In this document: piece after piece, positions 3,728-14,616 of the stretch
How positions within the stretch are numbered: the first letter of the stretch is position 1
How the letters are laid out: each line of letters starts with the position of its first letter
Assembly (NCBI GenBank): GCA_015061805.1
Contig: SUVV01000013.1
Coordinates: 1-64,000, forward strand
Reading direction: 5' to 3'
Source: Lentisphaerota bacterium
GTDB lineage: Bacteria > Verrucomicrobiota > Lentisphaeria > Victivallales > Victivallaceae
DNA length: 64,000 nucleotides
The notes under the pieces: generated by a model
What the model saw: only the letters and a program-made list of their open reading frames with translations
Database searches by the model: none
What the model was told of the DNA's origin: nothing
Position numbers and translations under genes: made by a program

Positions 3728-4777
3728 TCATTCAAAAAGTTCAGAAGTTATAAATTCCATTTCACCGGCGATAGCGCCGCTTTTCCGGATATCGGCGACG
3801 ATACTGCGTTCCAGCGCCGCTTCCGGGAAATTTATCCCCGGCGCCAGAGTCCCGGAAAGCAGTTTGACAATACCGTAATTGTTGAGCGCCATCGTGGCGT
3901 CGATATATTTAAGCATGGTCGGTTCTTCGAGAATGAAATTCAACGGCTGTTTCCGGTTGAGCACCCGGGATTCCGGAAGTAAACTGCCGAACTCATCTTC
4001 CACGCCCATATTGGCAATAAGTGCCGGAGAATCATTCAGCGCCCGGCTCCACGGAGCAAGCGCTCCGGCACGCCCGGTCACCGAAACGACACACCAGGCA
4101 TCGGCGATCTTTTGCAGAACTGCCGCCGGATCATTACCATTGACAAAACTGATATTTTCCGGCAGATTCACTTCCTGCAGATCGATGACCGTCACCTTTG
4201 CTCCGGCACGTTGGGCATAGTGAGCAACTCCGCGCCCGACTTTGCCGCCTCCGAAGATCACAATATTCCGGTTGCAGAAATCGTTATATCCCGATTGCCG
4301 CATCGCCCGCAGAAAACCTTCTCCGGTACCGAGGACAGTTTCCAATTTTTTCAACACCCCGGAATCCGCAGAAAAAACCGGCTGGTGCCAGTTTTCATAA
4401 TAATCCAGCCCGGAACGGGTCAGCTCCACATAGCCGCAGGTGCTGACGACATGCCGGGAAGTGCCGGCACAATCGGCGACGACATCATATTTTTCTGAAT
4501 TTGCAGCAGTATCCGCCAGCCGGATATTGAAATTTTTCAGCATCCGGCAGATATCTTTATCACAGGGAAGATTCTCTCCGACGGCGGCAGTCACCTCCGC
4601 TCCGGCACATTGCAAAGCGTAATACTTCACAAGTGTATTGCGGAATACCGGAGTTGCATCATAGATACGCCGACCTGCCAAAGGACGGGTCAACTGCCAG
4701 CGTTCCGCCTGCTTTGCCAATGCGGGGAACTCCGACGGATCATAAAACTGCCGGATAAAATCGTACAATTCGCTCAT
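3728..4777 (-). CDS. Divergent S-adenosylhomocysteine hydrolase-like NAD-binding protein
   Basis: At 349 residues this is much shorter than ordinary SAHH (about 425-470). Similarity is visible in order: PLAGRRIYDATPVFRNTLVK with GAEVT (cf. the PL-G-x-I...QTAV...GAEV region), then SGVLKKLETVLGTGEG where SAHH has DS-TKS-FDN-YG-G, then the NAD-binding glycine-rich IVIFGGGKVGRGVAHYAQRAG near 170-190. The usual FDN is LET, the QTAVLIETL-type segment is altered, and the C-terminal Lys/Tyr tail is missing. It overlaps the murE stop by one base (TGATG), so translation is coupled. With the adjacent deaminase it could cleave S-inosylhomocysteine, as known for a methanogen SAHH homologue, but the lost residues leave activity open. 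Confidence 0.65.
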   Translation of the reverse strand: MSELYDFIRQFYDPSEFPALAKQAERWQLTRPLAGRRIYDATPVFRNTLVKYYALQCAGAEVTAAVGENLPCDKDICRMLKNFNIRLADTAANSEKYDVVADCAGTSRHVVSTCGYVELTRSGLDYYENWHQPVFSADSGVLKKLETVLGTGEGFLRAMRQSGYNDFCNRNIVIFGGGKVGRGVAHYAQRAGAKVTVIDLQEVNLPENISFVNGNDPAAVLQKIADAWCVVSVTGRAGALAPWSRALNDSPALIANMGVEDEFGSLLPESRVLNRKQPLNFILEEPTMLKYIDATMALNNYGIVKLLSGTLAPGINFPEAALERSIVADIRKSGAIAGEMEFITSELFE

Positions 4778-6228
4778 CAGCGGCCGATCTCCCGCAGGAT
4801 TTTCCGGTCATCAAAAGGATATTTGACTCCGGCGATCTCCTGATAATCTTCATGGCCTTTACCGGCGACGATCACCACATCACCGCACCCGGCATTGAGT
4901 ACCGCGAACTGCAGCGCCTCCCGGCGGTCGATGATCCTTGTCCACTTGCACTCTGCCGGGAATCCGGAGGCGATTGCGGAAATGATTTCTTCCGGATTTT
5001 CTGAACGGGGATTGTCACTGGTGACGATGATCTCGTCAGCATACTTTGCCGCGACCTCTCCCATCCTGCTCCGTTTGCTCTTGTCCCGGTCGCCGCCGGC
5101 ACCGAAAACCAGCCATAATCTGCCTTTGACAAAGGGTTTCACAGTCGCAAGGACATTCTGCAGCGCATCATCGGTGTGGGCAAAGTCAACGAAGAACCGG
5201 GCAGGAGAAACAGTTTCGACCATTTCCAGACGCCCCGGCACCTGAAATGGATGATTGACGGCTTTTTCCAACAATTCCGGCGCGAAACCTTCGCTCCAAA
5301 GCAGAGTAAGGACACCTGCCAGATTGTGGATATTGTAACTTCCGGCAAGCGGAGAAGCAACTTTTATTTTCTCTCCGCCATGGATAAGTTCAAACTCCAC
5401 GCCGTCAAGTTTAACTGCCGGATGGGCGATCCGGAACGCCGCATCGTCGGCACTTCCGAATCCGGAAATCTTATCGGCACCGCCCAGAATTTCAGCCAAT
5501 TTTCTGCCATAGGGGTCATCCAGATTGATCGCGGCCGTCCCGTTCTGTTCCAAAAGTTCGTTAAACAACCTCACTTTGGCGGCGAAGTAATTAGCCATAG
5601 TCTTGTGATAGTCCAGGTGATCTCCGGTGAGATTGGTGAAGATCGCGCCGGAGATACCGGCGGCATCGATGCGGTGCTGTTCGAGCGAATGACTGGAACT
5701 TTCCATCGCGACCGCCTGAATTCCGTTGGCTCTCATTGCCGCCAGAAGTTCAAAGAATTCGATGGCATCCGGAGTTGTCCGGGAAGAGGGCAGTTCCTTT
5801 TTGCCGTCATGGTAACTCACAGTGGAAAACAATCCGCAACTGACTCCGGCAAAAGAGAGAATACTGCGTATCAGAAATGCACTGGTGGTCTTGCCGTTGG
5901 TTCCGGTCACGGTATAAAGCTTCATCGCCTCGTCGGGATAATCCTGAAGCACTTTGTAGAAGTAGGAAACGATCTTGCGGGTATTGCTGACCTGAACGTA
6001 ATCAATTCCGGGAATCCGTTCAGCCAACTCTCCGGAAAAGACCACCACTTTCGCCCCCCGTTCGACCGCATCTCCGATGAACTCTTTTCCTTCAAAGTTA
6101 AAGCCGGAAACTGCAATAAAAATCCCGTTTTCTGCAACATTGCGGGAATCTATCGTCACCGGACGTCCGGGGAAACGGCGGATCACATCAGCAGCTTCAG
6201 CAAGCAGAGATTTTCTTTCATCATTCAT
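4777..6228 (-). CDS. murE: UDP-N-acetylmuramyl-tripeptide synthetase (Mur ligase E)
   Basis: The 483-residue protein adds the third residue (usually meso-diaminopimelate) to UDP-MurNAc-L-Ala-D-Glu in the cytoplasm. Visible: TIDSRNVAENGIFIAVSGFNFEGKEFI at the N-terminus, the Mur P-loop TGTNGKTTSAF, SSRTTPDAIEF for UMAG-tripeptide binding, MESSSHSLEQHR, FTNLTGDHLDYH, VDFAHTDDAL and the DNPRSENPEEI stretch (DNPR is characteristic of mDAP-adding MurE). GKGHEDYQ is near the end. The start at 6228 is chosen because its ATGA overlaps the murF stop and GGAGGAGG lies just upstream; a longer frame to 6261 has no comparable site. Usual partners of the dcw cluster (murD, mraY, ftsI) are absent here. Confidence 0.95.
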   Translation of the reverse strand: MNDERKSLLAEAADVIRRFPGRPVTIDSRNVAENGIFIAVSGFNFEGKEFIGDAVERGAKVVVFSGELAERIPGIDYVQVSNTRKIVSYFYKVLQDYPDEAMKLYTVTGTNGKTTSAFLIRSILSFAGVSCGLFSTVSYHDGKKELPSSRTTPDAIEFFELLAAMRANGIQAVAMESSSHSLEQHRIDAAGISGAIFTNLTGDHLDYHKTMANYFAAKVRLFNELLEQNGTAAINLDDPYGRKLAEILGGADKISGFGSADDAAFRIAHPAVKLDGVEFELIHGGEKIKVASPLAGSYNIHNLAGVLTLLWSEGFAPELLEKAVNHPFQVPGRLEMVETVSPARFFVDFAHTDDALQNVLATVKPFVKGRLWLVFGAGGDRDKSKRSRMGEVAAKYADEIIVTSDNPRSENPEEIISAIASGFPAECKWTRIIDRREALQFAVLNAGCGDVVIVAGKGHEDYQEIAGVKYPFDDRKILREIGR

Positions 6229-8327: not shown

Positions 8328-9185
8328 TTACTTTCCGCAGATTTTTTCAGCCAGATTTATCAACATGCCGGAAAAACCGGAACGTTCCCGGCGCAATCCA
8401 AGCTTGACGATCTGCCGTGCCTGTTCTGAAACCGACACCTCCGGCACGTCCGCCTTGAATCTTATCACATCATTTCCGGCAGATGGTGACGGCTCTGAAA
8501 CCGGCGGCGGTACCGGATCATTGATGCACACCGTTTCTGCGCTTTGCACCGGTTCTGAAACCGGCGGCGGCACCTGATCATTGAAGCACACCGTTTTTGC
8601 GCTTTGCACCGGTTCCGAAACCGGCGGCGGTACCGGATCATTGATGCACACCGTTTTTGCGCTTTGCACCGGTTCCGAAACCGGCGGCGGCACTGGATCA
8701 TTGATACATGCGGTCACCGCTTTGGTTGCAGCCGGCATACTGATAACATCTCCACCCGGAAGAATATCGTCTGGCAGATTCAGCGGCGACTCAAACAACG
8801 GCTTGGTGGAACATCCGACGAAAGCCTCTGACGGCAGTTTTATTGGATCTGGAGTTGCCGCCGGAATAACCGGAATATTCAAATCCGCCTGAACTCCGGG
8901 AGCAAAAACCTCCGGCTTTTCCGATACGTAAAACAATGCTTTGCAATTGGAACAGGAGTATTCTCCCAAATTGGATTTGTCGATATAAAAATGCTGACGG
9001 CAATGAGGACAGGCAATGCGGCGGTCATTACCTTTGGGAGCAAGTTCGATTGCGAAGGGAACCAAAGCATAATTATAGTAGATATGCTTTTGCTGACATT
9101 TGCCGCACGAAACCTTACGACCGACCTGGACATCAATCCCGACGGCATAAATTTCTCCGCAGCATGGACAAACCATCTTGGTCAT
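8328..9185 (-). CDS. Double zinc-ribbon protein with proline-rich tandem repeats
   Basis: The 285-residue protein has two N-terminal zinc ribbons: CPCC with CGKC (Cys 6, 9, 27, 30) and CPHC with CSNC (Cys 59, 62, 78, 81). Residues about 158-232 are four near-identical 20-residue repeats of the type INDPVPPPVSEPVQSAKTVC, each bearing a Cys. No signal peptide or membrane segment is evident, so the protein is probably cytosolic or peripheral. The start at 9185 is chosen for the GAGGGA site and because longer frames would run into the preceding gene, which ends at 9199. It is the last gene of the SPFH/zinc-ribbon cluster. The function is unknown; zinc ribbons plus a proline-rich arm suggest a scaffold. 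Confidence 0.75.
   Translation of the reverse strand: MTKMVCPCCGEIYAVGIDVQVGRKVSCGKCQQKHIYYNYALVPFAIELAPKGNDRRIACPHCRQHFYIDKSNLGEYSCSNCKALFYVSEKPEVFAPGVQADLNIPVIPAATPDPIKLPSEAFVGCSTKPLFESPLNLPDDILPGGDVISMPAATKAVTACINDPVPPPVSEPVQSAKTVCINDPVPPPVSEPVQSAKTVCFNDQVPPPVSEPVQSAETVCINDPVPPPVSEPSPSAGNDVIRFKADVPEVSVSEQARQIVKLGLRRERSGFSGMLINLAEKICGK
8491..8712. repeat. 60-bp tandem repeat, about 3.7 copies
   Basis: Units start at 8491, 8551, 8611 and 8671, with only a few substitutions between neighbours. The last copy diverges after about 8708. The unit length is a multiple of three, so copy-number change keeps the frame of the zinc-ribbon gene. Confidence 0.95.
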
Positions 9186-9198
9186 AACATCATCCCTC

Positions 9199-10503
9199 TC
9201 ATTTCTCGATAACAAATGCATTTCCGGAATCATCTTCGATCTCTTCGGAAATACCATCTATTTTCTTAAGGCGCAACTTGATATAAGTTTTGCGTTTCTG
9301 ACTGTTTGCAAGCTGTTCAACTTTATCGACTGGCGGTTCATAACGCCGGTCTTCGGCAGCATCGTACCATAAGTTGGGCATCACAATTGGCATAAGTGCC
9401 GTCACTATAAACGCAACGATAGCCCATCCCGCCATAACCAATCCGGAATAGGTTGTAAAGCGCTGTTCAAACTCTTTCAATTTGGCAAGATGCTTACCGA
9501 TCTCACCGACCGGAGCCAGTTTTATTTTAGACTTGCGGATGGCGATCTGCTCACGATAAACAATTCCGGCACAAACCAGCGGCAGAGTCAGAACAATGAA
9601 CATAACTGCATCAACTTTACTCTGAAATGCTGCCAATATCCCCGCACCGATACCAACTGCGGCAATACCGCCTGCAGTGAGACCTGCGGCAATCCATTTG
9701 CGACGGCTGGTAGTCGGAACCGTACCGGCGACTGCACCACTGGCGGCATTCTGCATAACGTAATAACTGCAACCTTCCCATTCATAGACAAAGAGCCAGA
9801 AAGGGATCATCTGCAAAGTGGTTTTACGTTCAATGATCCGCCGGGTGGTATGCAAGTTGCGCTGATATTCACCTGGCAACTGCTCAATGCACTGATCAGT
9901 GACCGACTCATCAAGTGCCGGAACCACGTAAGCTTTTTCTCCGTCTCCGGCGGCAGTGTCACAATTCAGATATGAAATTCCCCGGCAATGTTCAGGATGA
10001 AATGGCAGCGGCATTTCGTCACAGGCAAGTGCCAGACGACAACTGTCGCCTCCCAATCCCCGGTTGTGGATGACTGATGAAGCCGGAGTATAGATCACCG
10101 TAGATCCCATTACCTGACCACTGCTGCCCTGCCAGGCGACACCGTTTTTGGCATTTTCATTTTCATATCCGATATCAGCGGTCCAGGTGGCATCCCATTG
10201 AACTTCCTGGCGGTAAAACGGCCAGAAATTGAGTGTCAATTCCTGTTCAAGCATATTTTCATACAGCGAATCCGGCACATCACTCTTGGAACAGAGAAAC
10301 GCCCGAACCGCACTGCGGAACGCCTGTTCCGAAAAATTTGCCGGGAAAATATCTTCCACTACCGGCTGTTCAGCCGCCTTTGCCGACTGCACCAGAGAAT
10401 TGCACCTGCCGCAATAAGGACAGTTGCCGAATCTCAACGTCGGATCGACAGTTATTGATGCACCGCAACCGGTACACTCCATTACGACATTCTGAAACGC
10501 CAT
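9199..10503 (-). CDS. Zinc-ribbon membrane protein (YdjG-like)
   Basis: The 434-residue protein starts with a zinc ribbon (CTGC at 10-13, CPYC at 28-31, plus Cys 34), continues with about 230 soluble residues containing WPFYRQEVQWDATWTAD and FWLFVYEWEGCSYYVM, and then has three likely membrane segments (about 270-292, 299-315, 353-375) followed by a charged C-terminus. The layout recalls Bacillus YdjG, a zinc-ribbon membrane protein that helps recruit PspA to stressed membranes; that comparison rests on architecture, not alignment. GGAGG lies in the end of the upstream gene, whose stop overlaps the start (TAATG). The neighbour on the other side is the double zinc-ribbon gene. Confidence 0.7.
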   Translation of the reverse strand: MAFQNVVMECTGCGASITVDPTLRFGNCPYCGRCNSLVQSAKAAEQPVVEDIFPANFSEQAFRSAVRAFLCSKSDVPDSLYENMLEQELTLNFWPFYRQEVQWDATWTADIGYENENAKNGVAWQGSSGQVMGSTVIYTPASSVIHNRGLGGDSCRLALACDEMPLPFHPEHCRGISYLNCDTAAGDGEKAYVVPALDESVTDQCIEQLPGEYQRNLHTTRRIIERKTTLQMIPFWLFVYEWEGCSYYVMQNAASGAVAGTVPTTSRRKWIAAGLTAGGIAAVGIGAGILAAFQSKVDAVMFIVLTLPLVCAGIVYREQIAIRKSKIKLAPVGEIGKHLAKLKEFEQRFTTYSGLVMAGWAIVAFIVTALMPIVMPNLWYDAAEDRRYEPPVDKVEQLANSQKRKTYIKLRLKKIDGISEEIEDDSGNAFVIEK

Positions 10504-10868
10504 TATTTATTTCCTCCTTCCGGCCGTGAAATCAATAAAGCAATTCCCCAGCACAGCATCACAAACAATACTATTCCGAGCTGAGCACCAGCCATGATCT
10601 GCCAGGAGAGCCGGGCAGAACACACCAACAGCACCAGCGAGGCAATAAGATAACCGGGCAGCACAAACAAATACAACGGCAAAAGCAATGGGAAATTCCG
10701 GCTGCTGCCTCCGGGACATGGAACAAACAGCAAAATTTCAGCAGCAAGCAGTGAACCGAATGCGATCCACCCGGAAACTGTCATCGCATTGCTCCAAATC
10801 AATACTGCGCCGACCGTGGCAATGATCATTGCTGACAACATCAGAATCCGGATAACCATTTTTTTCAT
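10503..10868 (-). CDS. Small four-helix membrane protein
   Basis: The 121-residue protein is almost all hydrophobic, with likely membrane helices at about 6-26, 31-50, 60-83 and 90-113 and short charged ends (MKKMVIR, SRPEGGNK). No family is recognised. GGAGA precedes the ATG and the stop overlaps the next gene by one base. Its position between an SPFH gene and a zinc-ribbon membrane gene suggests it is a small subunit of the same envelope assembly. Confidence 0.7.
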   Translation of the reverse strand: MKKMVIRILMLSAMIIATVGAVLIWSNAMTVSGWIAFGSLLAAEILLFVPCPGGSSRNFPLLLPLYLFVLPGYLIASLVLLVCSARLSWQIMAGAQLGIVLFVMLCWGIALLISRPEGGNK

Positions 10869-10883
10869 ATTTTGTGTCTCCGG

Positions 10884-11930
10884 TTATTTTTTCAATACTT
10901 TTCCGCACTGCGGGCAGAATCTGGCTCCATCCGGAACCTGCTTGCCACAACAGACGATCACCTGTTCCGCACCGCAAATATGACAAAAACGGGAACCGGA
11001 CTGCAGCGCCGCATTACAGTTCACGCAGCCGGTGGCAACAGGAGCCGACACATTCAAAATTCCGGCAGTACTCTGATTGACAGCTGGTCCGATGGCACCG
11101 CCGACTGCGGCGCCGATGCCGAGTCCGATACCGGCTCCGGCAATGGCTCCGGCGGAACCTTCGTTTTCAGCCGCCCCCTGAAGGACATCAAAAGAGCGCT
11201 CCTGAGTGTAGTTATAACCCAGTATTTCCATATCGGCACGCTTGGCCAAACTGCTGCGGATTGCGGTGATCGCCGGGTCATCCTGCGGGAAATTCACCGA
11301 CTGCACATAAAAATTGATCAGTCCGACTCCGAAATCAGCAAATCCGATCGCCAACTCTTTGCTTAACAATGTTGACAATGCATCCAGATGAGTGTTGATC
11401 TCAAATACTGAACATCCGCTGTTTTTGAAACATCCGGCAATCAAGGTTTTTACCTTGGTCTGAACCATCGCCTTAAAGTAGTCACACAATCTTGCGGTAT
11501 CAAATTCATTGTAGGTTCCGACCAGAGTTTTGAGAAAAAGCTGTGCGTTCTGGATCTGAATACCAAACTGACCGTAACAGCGAACCGGTACCGGGATTTT
11601 GTAGGCAGGATCAAGTATCTGAATAGGGTCTTGTGTTCCCCAGAGCAAATTGAGCGGCATGGTCTTCTGCACAAACCACACCTCTGCCGAATACGGGGTC
11701 TGACCGCCGAAAGGAATCTTGACCAGATTACGCAGCAGCGGCACATTGTCAGTATCAAGAATGTGAGTCCCCGGACCATAGGCATCTGAAACCTCGCCGC
11801 CCAACACCACAAAAGCTTCCTGTGCGGTTGAAACGATCAACCGGGTCGCGGTAGATAAATCATCAGACGGGAACTTCCAGACAAGTTCATCCGGAGAAGC
11901 GTTCCATTTTACAACATCAATAATCGCCAT
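10884..11930 (-). CDS. SPFH-domain protein with C-terminal double zinc ribbon (YdjI-like)
   Basis: The 348-residue protein starts MAIIDVVKWN-ASPDELVWKFP, the hallmark N-terminus of the YdjI/virion-core-type SPFH family, followed by an SPFH domain (residues about 30-260, with EAFVVLGGEV and GTHILDTDNVPLL), a Gly/Ala-rich hydrophobic linker around 265-285, and two zinc ribbons at the end (CVNC...CHIC and CC...CPQC). Known: SPFH proteins form oligomeric membrane scaffolds, and Bacillus YdjI works with YdjG/YdjH and PspA. The start at 11930 is chosen for GGAGGAG directly upstream; a longer frame to 11975 would overlap the preceding gene. No pspA homologue is present in the window. Confidence 0.87.
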   Translation of the reverse strand: MAIIDVVKWNASPDELVWKFPSDDLSTATRLIVSTAQEAFVVLGGEVSDAYGPGTHILDTDNVPLLRNLVKIPFGGQTPYSAEVWFVQKTMPLNLLWGTQDPIQILDPAYKIPVPVRCYGQFGIQIQNAQLFLKTLVGTYNEFDTARLCDYFKAMVQTKVKTLIAGCFKNSGCSVFEINTHLDALSTLLSKELAIGFADFGVGLINFYVQSVNFPQDDPAITAIRSSLAKRADMEILGYNYTQERSFDVLQGAAENEGSAGAIAGAGIGLGIGAAVGGAIGPAVNQSTAGILNVSAPVATGCVNCNAALQSGSRFCHICGAEQVIVCCGKQVPDGARFCPQCGKVLKK

Positions 11931-11940
11931 ATGCTCCTCC

Positions 11941-13224
11941 TCACTTCGCCAGAATGTAATTGCGCACGATTGCATAGAAAATCATAAACGGCGCCAACAC
12001 ATACACCAGATACAGGAACAACAGCGCCGCCGCGATCTTTATGGCAAAGACGATCAGTACACCCCAGTAATTGTGTTCGACATATTTATTGCCGTAACCA
12101 TCGCTGTAAACGGTAACACTTGCCCCTTCCATACTGGCGGCACCGTTCAATGCCGAACCGGTCATCTTACCGAAAATTTTCAGTGAACCGCCCAGCATCC
12201 GGTAAACCAGCGAGCCTTCGCGTACCGGAACCAGATAAGCCGGGGTCCAGAATGCTATCGGAGAAAGAATCACCAGAAGATACATCGGATGCGCCGGGTA
12301 GATACAGAGCAGAATAACATAAAAAATACCCATAAAAATCCGTTTGACCAATCCGGAATCGACCGAAAGCCACGGCGCGATCATATAACGGCGGCGCCAA
12401 TAACAAACCGAATCAGCAAGCGCATTGAGCCGATCGACCGCCTCCGGATCAGTGGGTAATGTGGATGCCACGTCCGCAATCTCGTTTTCCAGAATATCCA
12501 ATTCACTGCGTGAACCGATCTCCACGGCGCCGTCATGCAGCGGCTTGCCGCCGACAGCGTTGTACCAGAGATTCATCACCAGACTTTTGGCATCATTTTC
12601 ACTGACCGAAGCATAGCCTTCGGCGCGCAGCTGTATCATCTGCTCCAGACTGTAAACCGGCGGCCGCATGCCGAGTTCGCGAATGATGATAACCATCATG
12701 ATCACAGCAGAGATCAACGAAAATACAAAAAGGATGATAAAAAGCCGGGCATCCAAACCATTGATCTTATTGTGGAGCGGATGATACTTGAAAAAGAAAT
12801 AATCCCGGATCCGGTCGGCTTCCCGGTAGCGCTCCCGATATGCCTCCATTTCAGCATCGTGCTTTTCCTCAACCGCATTGACTTCACTGGAGGTCAGGCG
12901 GCGGCGCACCACTTCAAAATCCGGATCATCAGTTATGATCTCATCATCATCAACCATGATTTCATCGGCGGGATTTCTGCCGTAACGTTGGGATTTGCGG
13001 GAAGATTTTTTGCCGGCGGATTTTTCCGGGGACGCGACAACTTCAAATTCAGCACTGTTATCATCGGAAACGGTCAGATTCCGGCTCCGGCTTTTTGAAC
13101 TGCCGGAGTTGCCGGATACGATTTCGAACTCCACATCGTCATCGGCGGCACTATACCACGGCACCGCCGTCAACATCACGACGACAGCGGTCAGGATTGA
13201 CAGGGAACCGGTTCGAATAAACAT
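11941..13224 (-). CDS. Membrane protein with signal peptide and acidic repeat-bearing N-terminal region
   Basis: The 427-residue protein begins with a signal peptide or N-terminal anchor (SILTAVVVMLTAVPWYSAAD). Residues about 29-110 are low-complexity and charged, with a short motif three times: VEFEIVSG, AEFEVVAS and PDFEVVRR. A membrane segment (LFIILFVFSLISAVIMMVIII) sits near 160-180, a soluble part with SLVMNLWYNAVGGKPL follows, then two more hydrophobic blocks near 285-325 and 395-425. No family is recognised. GAGGAA in the end of the upstream gene serves the ATG 3 bases later. It is part of the SPFH/zinc-ribbon cluster and could correspond to the YdjH position. Confidence 0.65.
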   Translation of the reverse strand: MFIRTGSLSILTAVVVMLTAVPWYSAADDDVEFEIVSGNSGSSKSRSRNLTVSDDNSAEFEVVASPEKSAGKKSSRKSQRYGRNPADEIMVDDDEIITDDPDFEVVRRRLTSSEVNAVEEKHDAEMEAYRERYREADRIRDYFFFKYHPLHNKINGLDARLFIILFVFSLISAVIMMVIIIRELGMRPPVYSLEQMIQLRAEGYASVSENDAKSLVMNLWYNAVGGKPLHDGAVEIGSRSELDILENEIADVASTLPTDPEAVDRLNALADSVCYWRRRYMIAPWLSVDSGLVKRIFMGIFYVILLCIYPAHPMYLLVILSPIAFWTPAYLVPVREGSLVYRMLGGSLKIFGKMTGSALNGAASMEGASVTVYSDGYGNKYVEHNYWGVLIVFAIKIAAALLFLYLVYVLAPFMIFYAIVRNYILAK

Positions 13225-13227
13225 GAT

Positions 13228-13779
13228 TTATTCCTCTTCACTTACCGTGTGATAAAGTTTCGCAGGGGTTATATCTTTCATTTTCATTGCATTCAGCGGA
13301 GCATATTTAAGCGTAAAACCGGCCGTATCGAACCACGCGGTTGCATTGAAGTAAATCCGTATTTTAACAAATCCGCGCTTAAGAGTTGCTTTGGCGGTCA
13401 TGGTCTTGGATTCTTTCGCATTACGGGTAAACAACACTTTTTTGTCAATAAAAATTTTGATATTTGCATCATTTCCGCCCCAGCTGTTGAACATATTCAA
13501 CGTGAAACGGTATTCACCGGCTTTGGGGATCTGCAAATACCCCTCCCACATAATAAAGCTTTTGTGGTGGATGTTTTTCAACTCATCGCACACATGAATA
13601 TTCATTCCGCGGAATGCGGTGGCTTCATCAACAAAACCGCCATTGGGAACTGAATCCGGCTTATTCTTGGTGTTGACGCTCCAAGCGTAACAACTGGCTC
13701 CGGGGGCAAGTTTGACCTTTTTAGCGCTCAAAGTGGAACAGAGCAGCAGAGCCATGCAAAGAAGTAAAAGACGTTTCAT
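13228..13779 (-). CDS. Secreted PA14-like carbohydrate- or ligand-binding protein
   Basis: The 183-residue protein has a clear signal peptide (MKRLLLLCMALLLCSTLSA). The mature part looks like a compact PA14-type beta-sandwich: IMWEGYLQIPKAGEYRFTLNMFNSWGGNDANIKIFIDKKVLF, then a Lys-rich edge and KRGFVKIRIYFNATAWFDTAGFTLKY. In PA14 proteins the pattern W-G-xx-P-xx-G-xY-F...D-xx-V-I-D is common and the fold often binds glycans. It starts 4 bases inside the preceding gene (ATGA). In the cluster it would act outside the inner membrane. Confidence 0.6.
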   Translation of the reverse strand: MKRLLLLCMALLLCSTLSAKKVKLAPGASCYAWSVNTKNKPDSVPNGGFVDEATAFRGMNIHVCDELKNIHHKSFIMWEGYLQIPKAGEYRFTLNMFNSWGGNDANIKIFIDKKVLFTRNAKESKTMTAKATLKRGFVKIRIYFNATAWFDTAGFTLKYAPLNAMKMKDITPAKLYHTVSEEE

Positions 13780-14429
13780 GTTGTTTTCCCTTTCTTAGAA
13801 CTATTGAATTTACTTTTATGTTTTGGTGGAACAACTTTGGATGGACGGGGACCTGGCTTCCCGGGCATTTTGAATTTGCTTTTGCCGGGGAGCGGATGTT
13901 TCAAATGCGGACGCAACGGTCCGAAACGCGGCGGCACCGGACGGCGCGGGTGAAAACGGTGGTGCGGGTGCAAACGGTGGCGCGGCACTCCACGGTAATA
14001 ATGCCATCCCGGAACATATCTGCGATTAACATAGGTCGTGGAAGAATAGACCGTTTTATGGGAGTAGGATGGAAATTTGATCTTTACATCCGGCAGATCA
14101 ATATCTATTTTGGGAGAAAAATTCAGTGAAGGCAAATTTACTCCGGTCGGCAGCCAGAAGCGGCGACGGATAACTGTCTCCGGCTGTTCACCCCGTTGAA
14201 CATTGCTGGCGTGAGAAATCTCATCCTCACCGATCACAATTTCATCAAACGAATCATCCTGCCAGGAGGCAGCGGCAGAGTTTCCGGAGGATTTTATTTC
14301 GGCGGTTTTAACATTTTCGCCTGCAGACTCCAATTCATCATAAGACACCACTATTGTGTCATTTGCAACTGCGACCCGCGAAATACCGATGATCAATATC
14401 GCGAAAACAATTTTTTTCAACAGAAACAA
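13776..14429 (-). CDS. Exported protein with a strongly basic His/Pro-rich tail
   Basis: This is the first gene of the SPFH/zinc-ribbon cluster. The N-terminus (FLLKKIVFAILIIGISRVAVA) is a signal peptide. After an acidic stretch (DDSFDEIVIGEDEI) comes a tail from about residue 130 rich in Arg, His, Pro and Lys (for example HRLHPHHRFHPRRPVPPR) ending in KKGKTT. No family is recognised. Start choice: an ATG at 14444 lies inside GGAGGGG and has no site of its own, while TTG at 14429 sits 8 bases after that GGAGG, so TTG is preferred. The charge suggests binding to an acidic partner such as an envelope polymer, or metal binding by His; both are guesses. Confidence 0.6.
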   Translation of the reverse strand: MFLLKKIVFAILIIGISRVAVANDTIVVSYDELESAGENVKTAEIKSSGNSAAASWQDDSFDEIVIGEDEISHASNVQRGEQPETVIRRRFWLPTGVNLPSLNFSPKIDIDLPDVKIKFPSYSHKTVYSSTTYVNRRYVPGWHYYRGVPRHRLHPHHRFHPRRPVPPRFGPLRPHLKHPLPGKSKFKMPGKPGPRPSKVVPPKHKSKFNSSKKGKTT

Positions 14430-14498
14430 TTGCCACCCCTCCATACAAAAAATTCTGTACTGCTGAAATAATCAGTTTCTGAAATCTCGTCTTGAGGT

Positions 14499-14527
14499 AA
14501 AATAGCACACCGTCAAATGATTTGCAA
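14499..14527 (-). promoter_or_regulatory. Promoter of the SPFH/zinc-ribbon cluster
   Basis: On the minus strand TTGCAA is followed after 17 bases by TATTTT, preceded by TGC (TGCTATTTT). It lies about 70 bases upstream of the first gene's start, with no other gene between, and would drive the whole seven-gene run. Confidence 0.55.
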
Positions 14528-14597
14528 GTCAACGAACTGTTTTTTTTAACGAAAAATCTGTTCAATAAAAGCGTTACAGAAATTTTATCAAAACGGA

Positions 14598-14616
14598 AAT
14601 GAAAAAATGTTTCATT
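14598..14616 (-). terminator. Weak A/T-rich inverted repeat after the ABC-F gene
   Basis: AATGAAA (14598-14604) faces TTTCATT (14610-14616) across a five-base loop, directly after the stop codon of the minus-strand ABC-F gene. The stem has one G-C pair and no long T run, so it is a weak candidate. Confidence 0.25.

Follow-up and report, generated by a model that had tools for sequence, protein, structure and literature searches.

A seven-gene operon of a Lentisphaerota bacterium looks like a lineage-specific variant of the YdjI-type SPFH membrane scaffold

SPFH proteins of the YdjI type are known chiefly as recruiters of PspA. In the pspA-ydjGHI operon of Bacillus subtilis, the SPFH/zinc-ribbon protein YdjI is encoded alongside two membrane proteins, the zinc-ribbon protein YdjG and YdjH (PMC8581546, PMC11237479, PMC9239133). 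Here we analyzed a cluster of seven genes, g1 to g7, that likewise combines these three kinds of protein in one operon and is located in a Lentisphaerota bacterium (assembly GCA_015061805.1, contig SUVV01000013.1; positions 1-64,000 of the forward strand, referred to as the window). The cluster appears to be a variant, specific to its lineage, of a membrane scaffold that is already known: its core belongs to a known family, and the novelty lies in which partners are combined and in the genes facing the envelope. An earlier note on this DNA had proposed a new system, which is too strong for an operon with such a core; its comparison with Bacillus ydjGHI largely holds, with g4 assigned to the YdjI family, g6 to YdjG as a homologue and no counterpart for YdjH. 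All seven open reading frames (ORFs) are present and co-directional on the minus strand at 8328-14429/14444, and the protein features listed for them previously were recovered:

14445-14616, minus strand: AT-rich gap of 172 bp 5' of g1, presumed promoter region, no match to a promoter consensus
13776-14429, minus strand (ORF to ATG 14444): g1, exported protein with a basic His/Pro/Arg-rich C-terminal tail; TTG start preferred
13228-13779, minus strand: g2, exported beta-sandwich protein of 183 amino acids (aa), similar to PA14 or carbohydrate-binding modules (CBM) (Pfam below cutoff, Foldseek)
11941-13224, minus strand: g3, 427 aa, with signal peptide, acidic FE(I/V)V tail, first transmembrane segment, helical domain (aa 190-282) and further transmembrane segments; three species only
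10884-11930, minus strand: g4, YdjI-family SPFH (Band_7_1) protein with two C-terminal zinc ribbons, 348 aa; SPFH domain at 11280-11882 (Pfam)
10503-10868, minus strand: g5, four-helix membrane protein of 121 aa, short form of a family found after SPFH genes of one clade, termed clade A below (jackhmmer, hhalign)
9199-10503, minus strand: g6, YdjG homologue of 434 aa with one N-terminal zinc ribbon, YdjG core, extra transmembrane segments and a tail (hhalign, jackhmmer)
8328-9185, minus strand: g7, double zinc-ribbon protein of 285 aa with Pro-rich repeats and a conserved C-terminal helix, no transmembrane segment (Pfam, alignment with relatives)
8490-8705, no strand assigned: 60-bp tandem repeat in 3.6 copies inside g7, encoding the Pro repeats

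The central protein of the cluster is g4, which starts at 11930 rather than at the ORF limit 11975. It matches Band_7_1 (PF13421) with 128 bits (E=3.8e-37, cutoff 24), and its C-terminal zinc ribbons lie over the cutoffs of PF13240 (in two stretches) and PF12773. In the second ribbon (window 10887-11030) the CxxCG motif is replaced by adjacent cysteines (CCG) in all three species carrying the cluster. Judged from its sequence, g4 is a YdjI-family SPFH/zinc-ribbon protein. Flotillins of the FloA/FloT type share with it the SPFH domain and a presumed role as membrane scaffold; unlike these, g4 matches PF13421 far more strongly than PF01145 and has no clear membrane anchor, the sole candidate being a marginal Gly/Ala-rich hydrophobic stretch at aa 262-281. 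The Protein Data Bank (PDB) yielded no sequence relatives of g4 or g6.

For the comparison with YdjGHI, SPFH loci were taken from Bacillota, and one of them (L142), which has the same gene order as B. subtilis, served as reference in place of the B. subtilis record; a Pfam check found PspA, a double-ribbon YdjG, a TPM-domain YdjH and YdjI there in the published order. Within the collected neighbours, jackhmmer started from the L142 YdjG core reached g6 (6e-28), and started at g6 it recovered the L142 YdjG. Profile comparison of g6 and YdjG with hhalign gave 96.8% with three sequences per side; when YdjG was represented by a broader set the value was 99.1%, against 0.9% and 0.2% for the negative controls. 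The shared block reads MIPFWLFVYEWEGCSYYVMQNAASGAVAGTVP in g6 and LLPVWMVNYDFDHKEYLFAMNGQTGKVVGKPP in L142. These comparisons identify g6 as a YdjG homologue. It is hydrophobic from aa 271 onward, with three to four transmembrane segments including C-terminal ones, and carries about 160 extra residues with transmembrane segments C-terminal to the shared block. Since its N-terminus contains one CxxC..CxxC pair instead of the two of the YdjG reference proteins, aligning to their second ribbon, we term it a homologue and not a standard YdjG.

The gene between g4 and g6 belongs to another family. Four hydrophobic segments are found in g5, which was reached by jackhmmer from a Bacillota gene directly 3' of an SPFH gene (5e-19; hhalign 96%). 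Members of this family are encoded directly after SPFH genes in genomes of the Planctomycetes-Verrucomicrobia-Chlamydiae (PVC) group, Bacillota and Bacteroidota, including a Butyrivibrio plasmid and a Bacteroides plasmid, and 26 of the 28 family members listed are located at position +1 from the SPFH gene. Although g5 occupies the place of YdjH in the operon, it is not homologous to it: identification as YdjH was rejected, as g5 has no TPM domain, and it shows no profile similarity to YdjG either.

PspA, the fourth component in B. subtilis, was not detected: neither the operon nor the genome assembly (2.29 Mb) contains a match to PspA/IM30 (PF04012), which was found in nine of 14 control genomes, so that the description of the cluster as PspA-less stands. 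The TPM domain of YdjH (PF04536) is missing from the seven proteins and the assembly as well, with eight of 14 control genomes positive. Among the genomes of the phylum sample that match PspA, none belongs to the host's family. YdjI foci in B. subtilis arise without PspA and require YdjG and YdjH, which makes a PspA-free scaffold reasonable (PMC8581546).

To place the operon among its relatives, 85 SPFH loci were compared (W, L004-L006, L037-L103, L134-L153); Bacillota contributed 20 of them, and the other 65 came from the phylum sample, from plasmids and from named relatives. The g5 family occurs in 29 and YdjG in 34 of these loci, and both occur together only in the three loci of the cluster described here (Fisher p=5e-5, uncorrected for relatedness). 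The split in the SPFH tree matches this split of partners with a support of 98, or 100 without long branches. With a support of 100, g4 is placed on the side of the g5 partners (clade A), across the main split of the tree from YdjI; a basal position in comparison to a nested one is not rejected (p-AU 0.415). Because g4 lies on the g5 side and the operon contains g5 as well as the YdjG homologue g6, it combines both partner types. PspA was found above the cutoff in none of 20 clade-A genomes versus 10 of 37 clade-B genomes (p=0.01, again uncorrected for relatedness).

Clade-A modules, for which we found no published name, consist of an SPFH protein and a four-helix membrane protein, in some cases with a zinc-ribbon protein, and are present in PVC bacteria, Bacillota and Bacteroidota. 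They share with our operon the SPFH clade of g4 and the g5-family gene directly downstream; they differ from it in containing neither a YdjG gene nor g3 and in that their g5-type proteins have 220-290 aa with an extra C-terminal part. In clade-B pairs (PVC bacteria and Bacillota) a YdjG-type zinc-ribbon membrane protein adjoins the SPFH gene as g6 does here, whereas the g5-type protein is missing, YdjG has two ribbons and the SPFH protein belongs to the other clade. Compared with pspA-ydjGHI, the genes g1, g2, g3 and g7 are additions.

The same genome contains a second SPFH module (L037, G000:C3, 134-4076) with a clade-A SPFH gene, a g5-family gene and zinc-ribbon membrane proteins, and a similar module in relatives of the genus can carry a kinase-like protein (L053). 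A further partner type was observed at L055 (5841-7790) and L072, where the SPFH locus is followed by a related protein of 649-705 aa, which at L055 looks exported, is Gly-rich and has a transmembrane segment. Proteins of 800-1100 aa resembling zinc-ribbon proteins are encoded downstream of SPFH and g5-type genes in several genus and class relatives (L050, L051, L066, L077). In four genus genomes, the tetranucleotide AAGC is repeated 17-27 times in arrays located about 200-700 bp upstream of SPFH operons:

AAGC arrays: L037 4461-4560; L038 2739-2834; L054 6687-6794; L066 6585-6652

Both arrays that were examined are flanked by repeats of 90-105 bp, while the 64-kb window and a further 99 kb of loci from the genus contained no such array. 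The arrays may represent dispersed repeats or phase-variable promoter regions.

The complete cluster is much rarer than its core families. With g3 as marker it was detected in three of 137 genomes of the order, all of one genus, and a profile of the three g3 sequences found no further case among 289 genomes of the phylum. One relative (L005) retains the full order g1 to g7. In the other (L004, corresponding to genome G337 by position and sequence) the contig starts inside g2, of which 31 residues remain, followed by g3 to g7, with g7 at 4243-4824. Gene order is thus kept in both other g3-bearing species as far as the contigs extend, and the recurrence of the same genes in the same order in two related species shows that the arrangement is not due to chance and goes against the lack of co-occurrence in relatives that the earlier note had named as a refutation. 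The surroundings differ: in the window an ABC-F gene is located upstream and a BamE-like gene and murF downstream, and in both relatives the latter block is found on other contigs (L198, L199). The genes g1 to g7 are a real unit, which stayed together while the neighbourhood changed, though in few species. A simple insertion of the operon at a conserved junction between ABC-F and BamE-murF is unsupported, as the BamE-murF-murE block is present in nine genus genomes without an ABC-F gene in the stretch fetched, which for some genomes covered just 1-4 kb upstream. No published description of this gene arrangement was found in a literature search without most subscription journals.

From g1 to g7 the intergenic distances are -4, 3, 10, 15, -1 and 13 bp and the flanking gaps measure 172 bp upstream and 103 bp downstream, so that the seven genes form a single packed block. 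The neighbours, an ABC-F ATPase gene upstream and a gene for a protein with weak BamE similarity followed by murF downstream, are transcribed in the same direction. A single promoter had been claimed for the cluster. The 172-bp gap contains no match to the sigma-70-type consensus used, other promoter types being outside the scan; since both flanking genes are in addition co-directional, one promoter is plausible and not established. Promoter and terminator scans of the operon and its borders gave nothing clearly above chance and no convincing separation from the flanking genes, and no RNA families were found within the operon or nearby. The g1 start at TTG 14429, which the end coordinate used previously implied, is preferred to ATG 14444 because GGAGGGG is located 6 nt upstream of it. 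Relatives of the host, a Lentisphaeria bacterium, occur in the rumen.

The first three genes encode the envelope-facing part. The product of g1 carries a signal peptide, and its basic tail of 82 residues contains 9 His, 17 Pro, 11 Arg and 12 Lys but lacks Asp and Glu; the relative of g1 in L005 is 31% identical and has the same architecture, the basic character of the tail being conserved. The counterpart of g2 in L005 is 56% identical. With 22.5 bits, g2 falls just below the 24-bit cutoff of PA14 (PF07691), and its model is a low-confidence beta-sandwich with a mean predicted local distance difference test score (pLDDT) of 55, for which Foldseek returned a Kluyveromyces beta-glucosidase, CBM35, CBM6 and the sugar-binding PA14 domain of a Marinomonas adhesin, all with query TM-scores below 0.5. 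Profile searches with g2 gave weak matches at most outside the three species. In g3 the signal peptide is followed by the FE(I/V)V motifs, of which one sits within the invariant frame IITDDPxFExV, and the helical domain at aa 190-282 is the best part of the model (pLDDT mostly 65-86); no fold match was found for this model. No Pfam or PADLOC family and no credible NCBIfam family was assigned to g1, g3 or g5. At the other end of the operon, the two zinc ribbons described before in g7 were confirmed; its Pro repeats are present, yet they are a local expansion that is seen in neither of the two relatives.

Judging from these features, we see about an even chance that the operon encodes a PspA-independent YdjI-type SPFH membrane scaffold. 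In such a scaffold g4 would oligomerise on the cytoplasmic face of the inner membrane, where the integral proteins g5 and g6 would hold it, as YdjG and YdjH hold YdjI in B. subtilis. The membrane would be spanned by g3, with the FEIV-motif tail outside and the helical domain inside, and g3 would couple the scaffold to the exported proteins g2 (carbohydrate-binding-like) and g1 (polycationic, possibly polymer-binding); g7 would act as a cytoplasmic zinc-ribbon adaptor. The components are predicted on both sides of the membrane, as the earlier note had it; its idea of zinc ribbons as shared assembly modules is neither supported nor contradicted by these features. The complex may mark or stabilise sites where the membrane touches surface polysaccharide or the wall, probably in response to envelope stress, this stimulus being the most economical guess from the YdjGHI precedent. 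That all parts form a self-contained trans-envelope complex, PspA-free and combining the four-helix protein with a YdjG partner, in which the inner SPFH scaffold is physically coupled via g3 to the outer carbohydrate-binding and polycationic proteins, is a tentative proposal and somewhat unlikely to hold in full. Several points weigh against the scaffold. Only three species are known to carry the full cluster, and g5 does not have the C-terminal part of about 100 residues of its relatives, which might be the SPFH-binding portion. Sequence features and low-confidence models are the basis for the g3 topology and for the roles proposed for g1, g2 and g7, and with a genome that is 91% complete the absence of PspA is likely, not certain.

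The main rival is that two functions share one transcript, with g4 to g7 forming a scaffold and g1 to g3 a separate surface unit that does not contact it. Such a division would fit the wide distribution of the g4, g5 and g6 families compared with a g3 confined to three species, and the link between g3 and the scaffold is a predicted one. We nevertheless regard it as unlikely: g1 and g2 overlap, only 3 bp separate g2 from g3 and 10 bp g3 from g4, g3 adjoins g4 in all three species despite the different surroundings, and a cytoplasmic helical domain is predicted in g3.

It is improbable, in our view, that the operon encodes a regulatory or sensing complex, in which g4 would provide the platform and the ribbons of g6 and g7 would bind nucleic acid or metal and report on membrane state. 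The operon proteins have no recognisable regulator, DNA-binding or enzymatic domain, and zinc ribbons are common as protein-protein modules; the idea draws on the zinc sites worth six ribbons across g4, g6 and g7, on clade-A modules of the genus that can include kinase-like and zinc-ribbon proteins, and on the YdjG ribbon, a TFIIB-type zinc ribbon that possibly binds DNA according to Popp et al. (PMC9239133). A patchy distribution within the genus and a shifting genomic context would also suit an operon for defence, against phages or otherwise, that makes use of an SPFH scaffold; with PADLOC matching none of the seven proteins and no nuclease, nucleoside triphosphatase or toxin-like domain found among them, this is very improbable.

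The operon and the related modules indicate that YdjI-type scaffolds are frequently employed without PspA and that each of the two SPFH clades goes with one of two alternative membrane partners, YdjG or the g5 family. The role of such a scaffold by itself becomes testable, and the operon supplies candidates for connecting a cytoplasmic SPFH scaffold with the cell surface.

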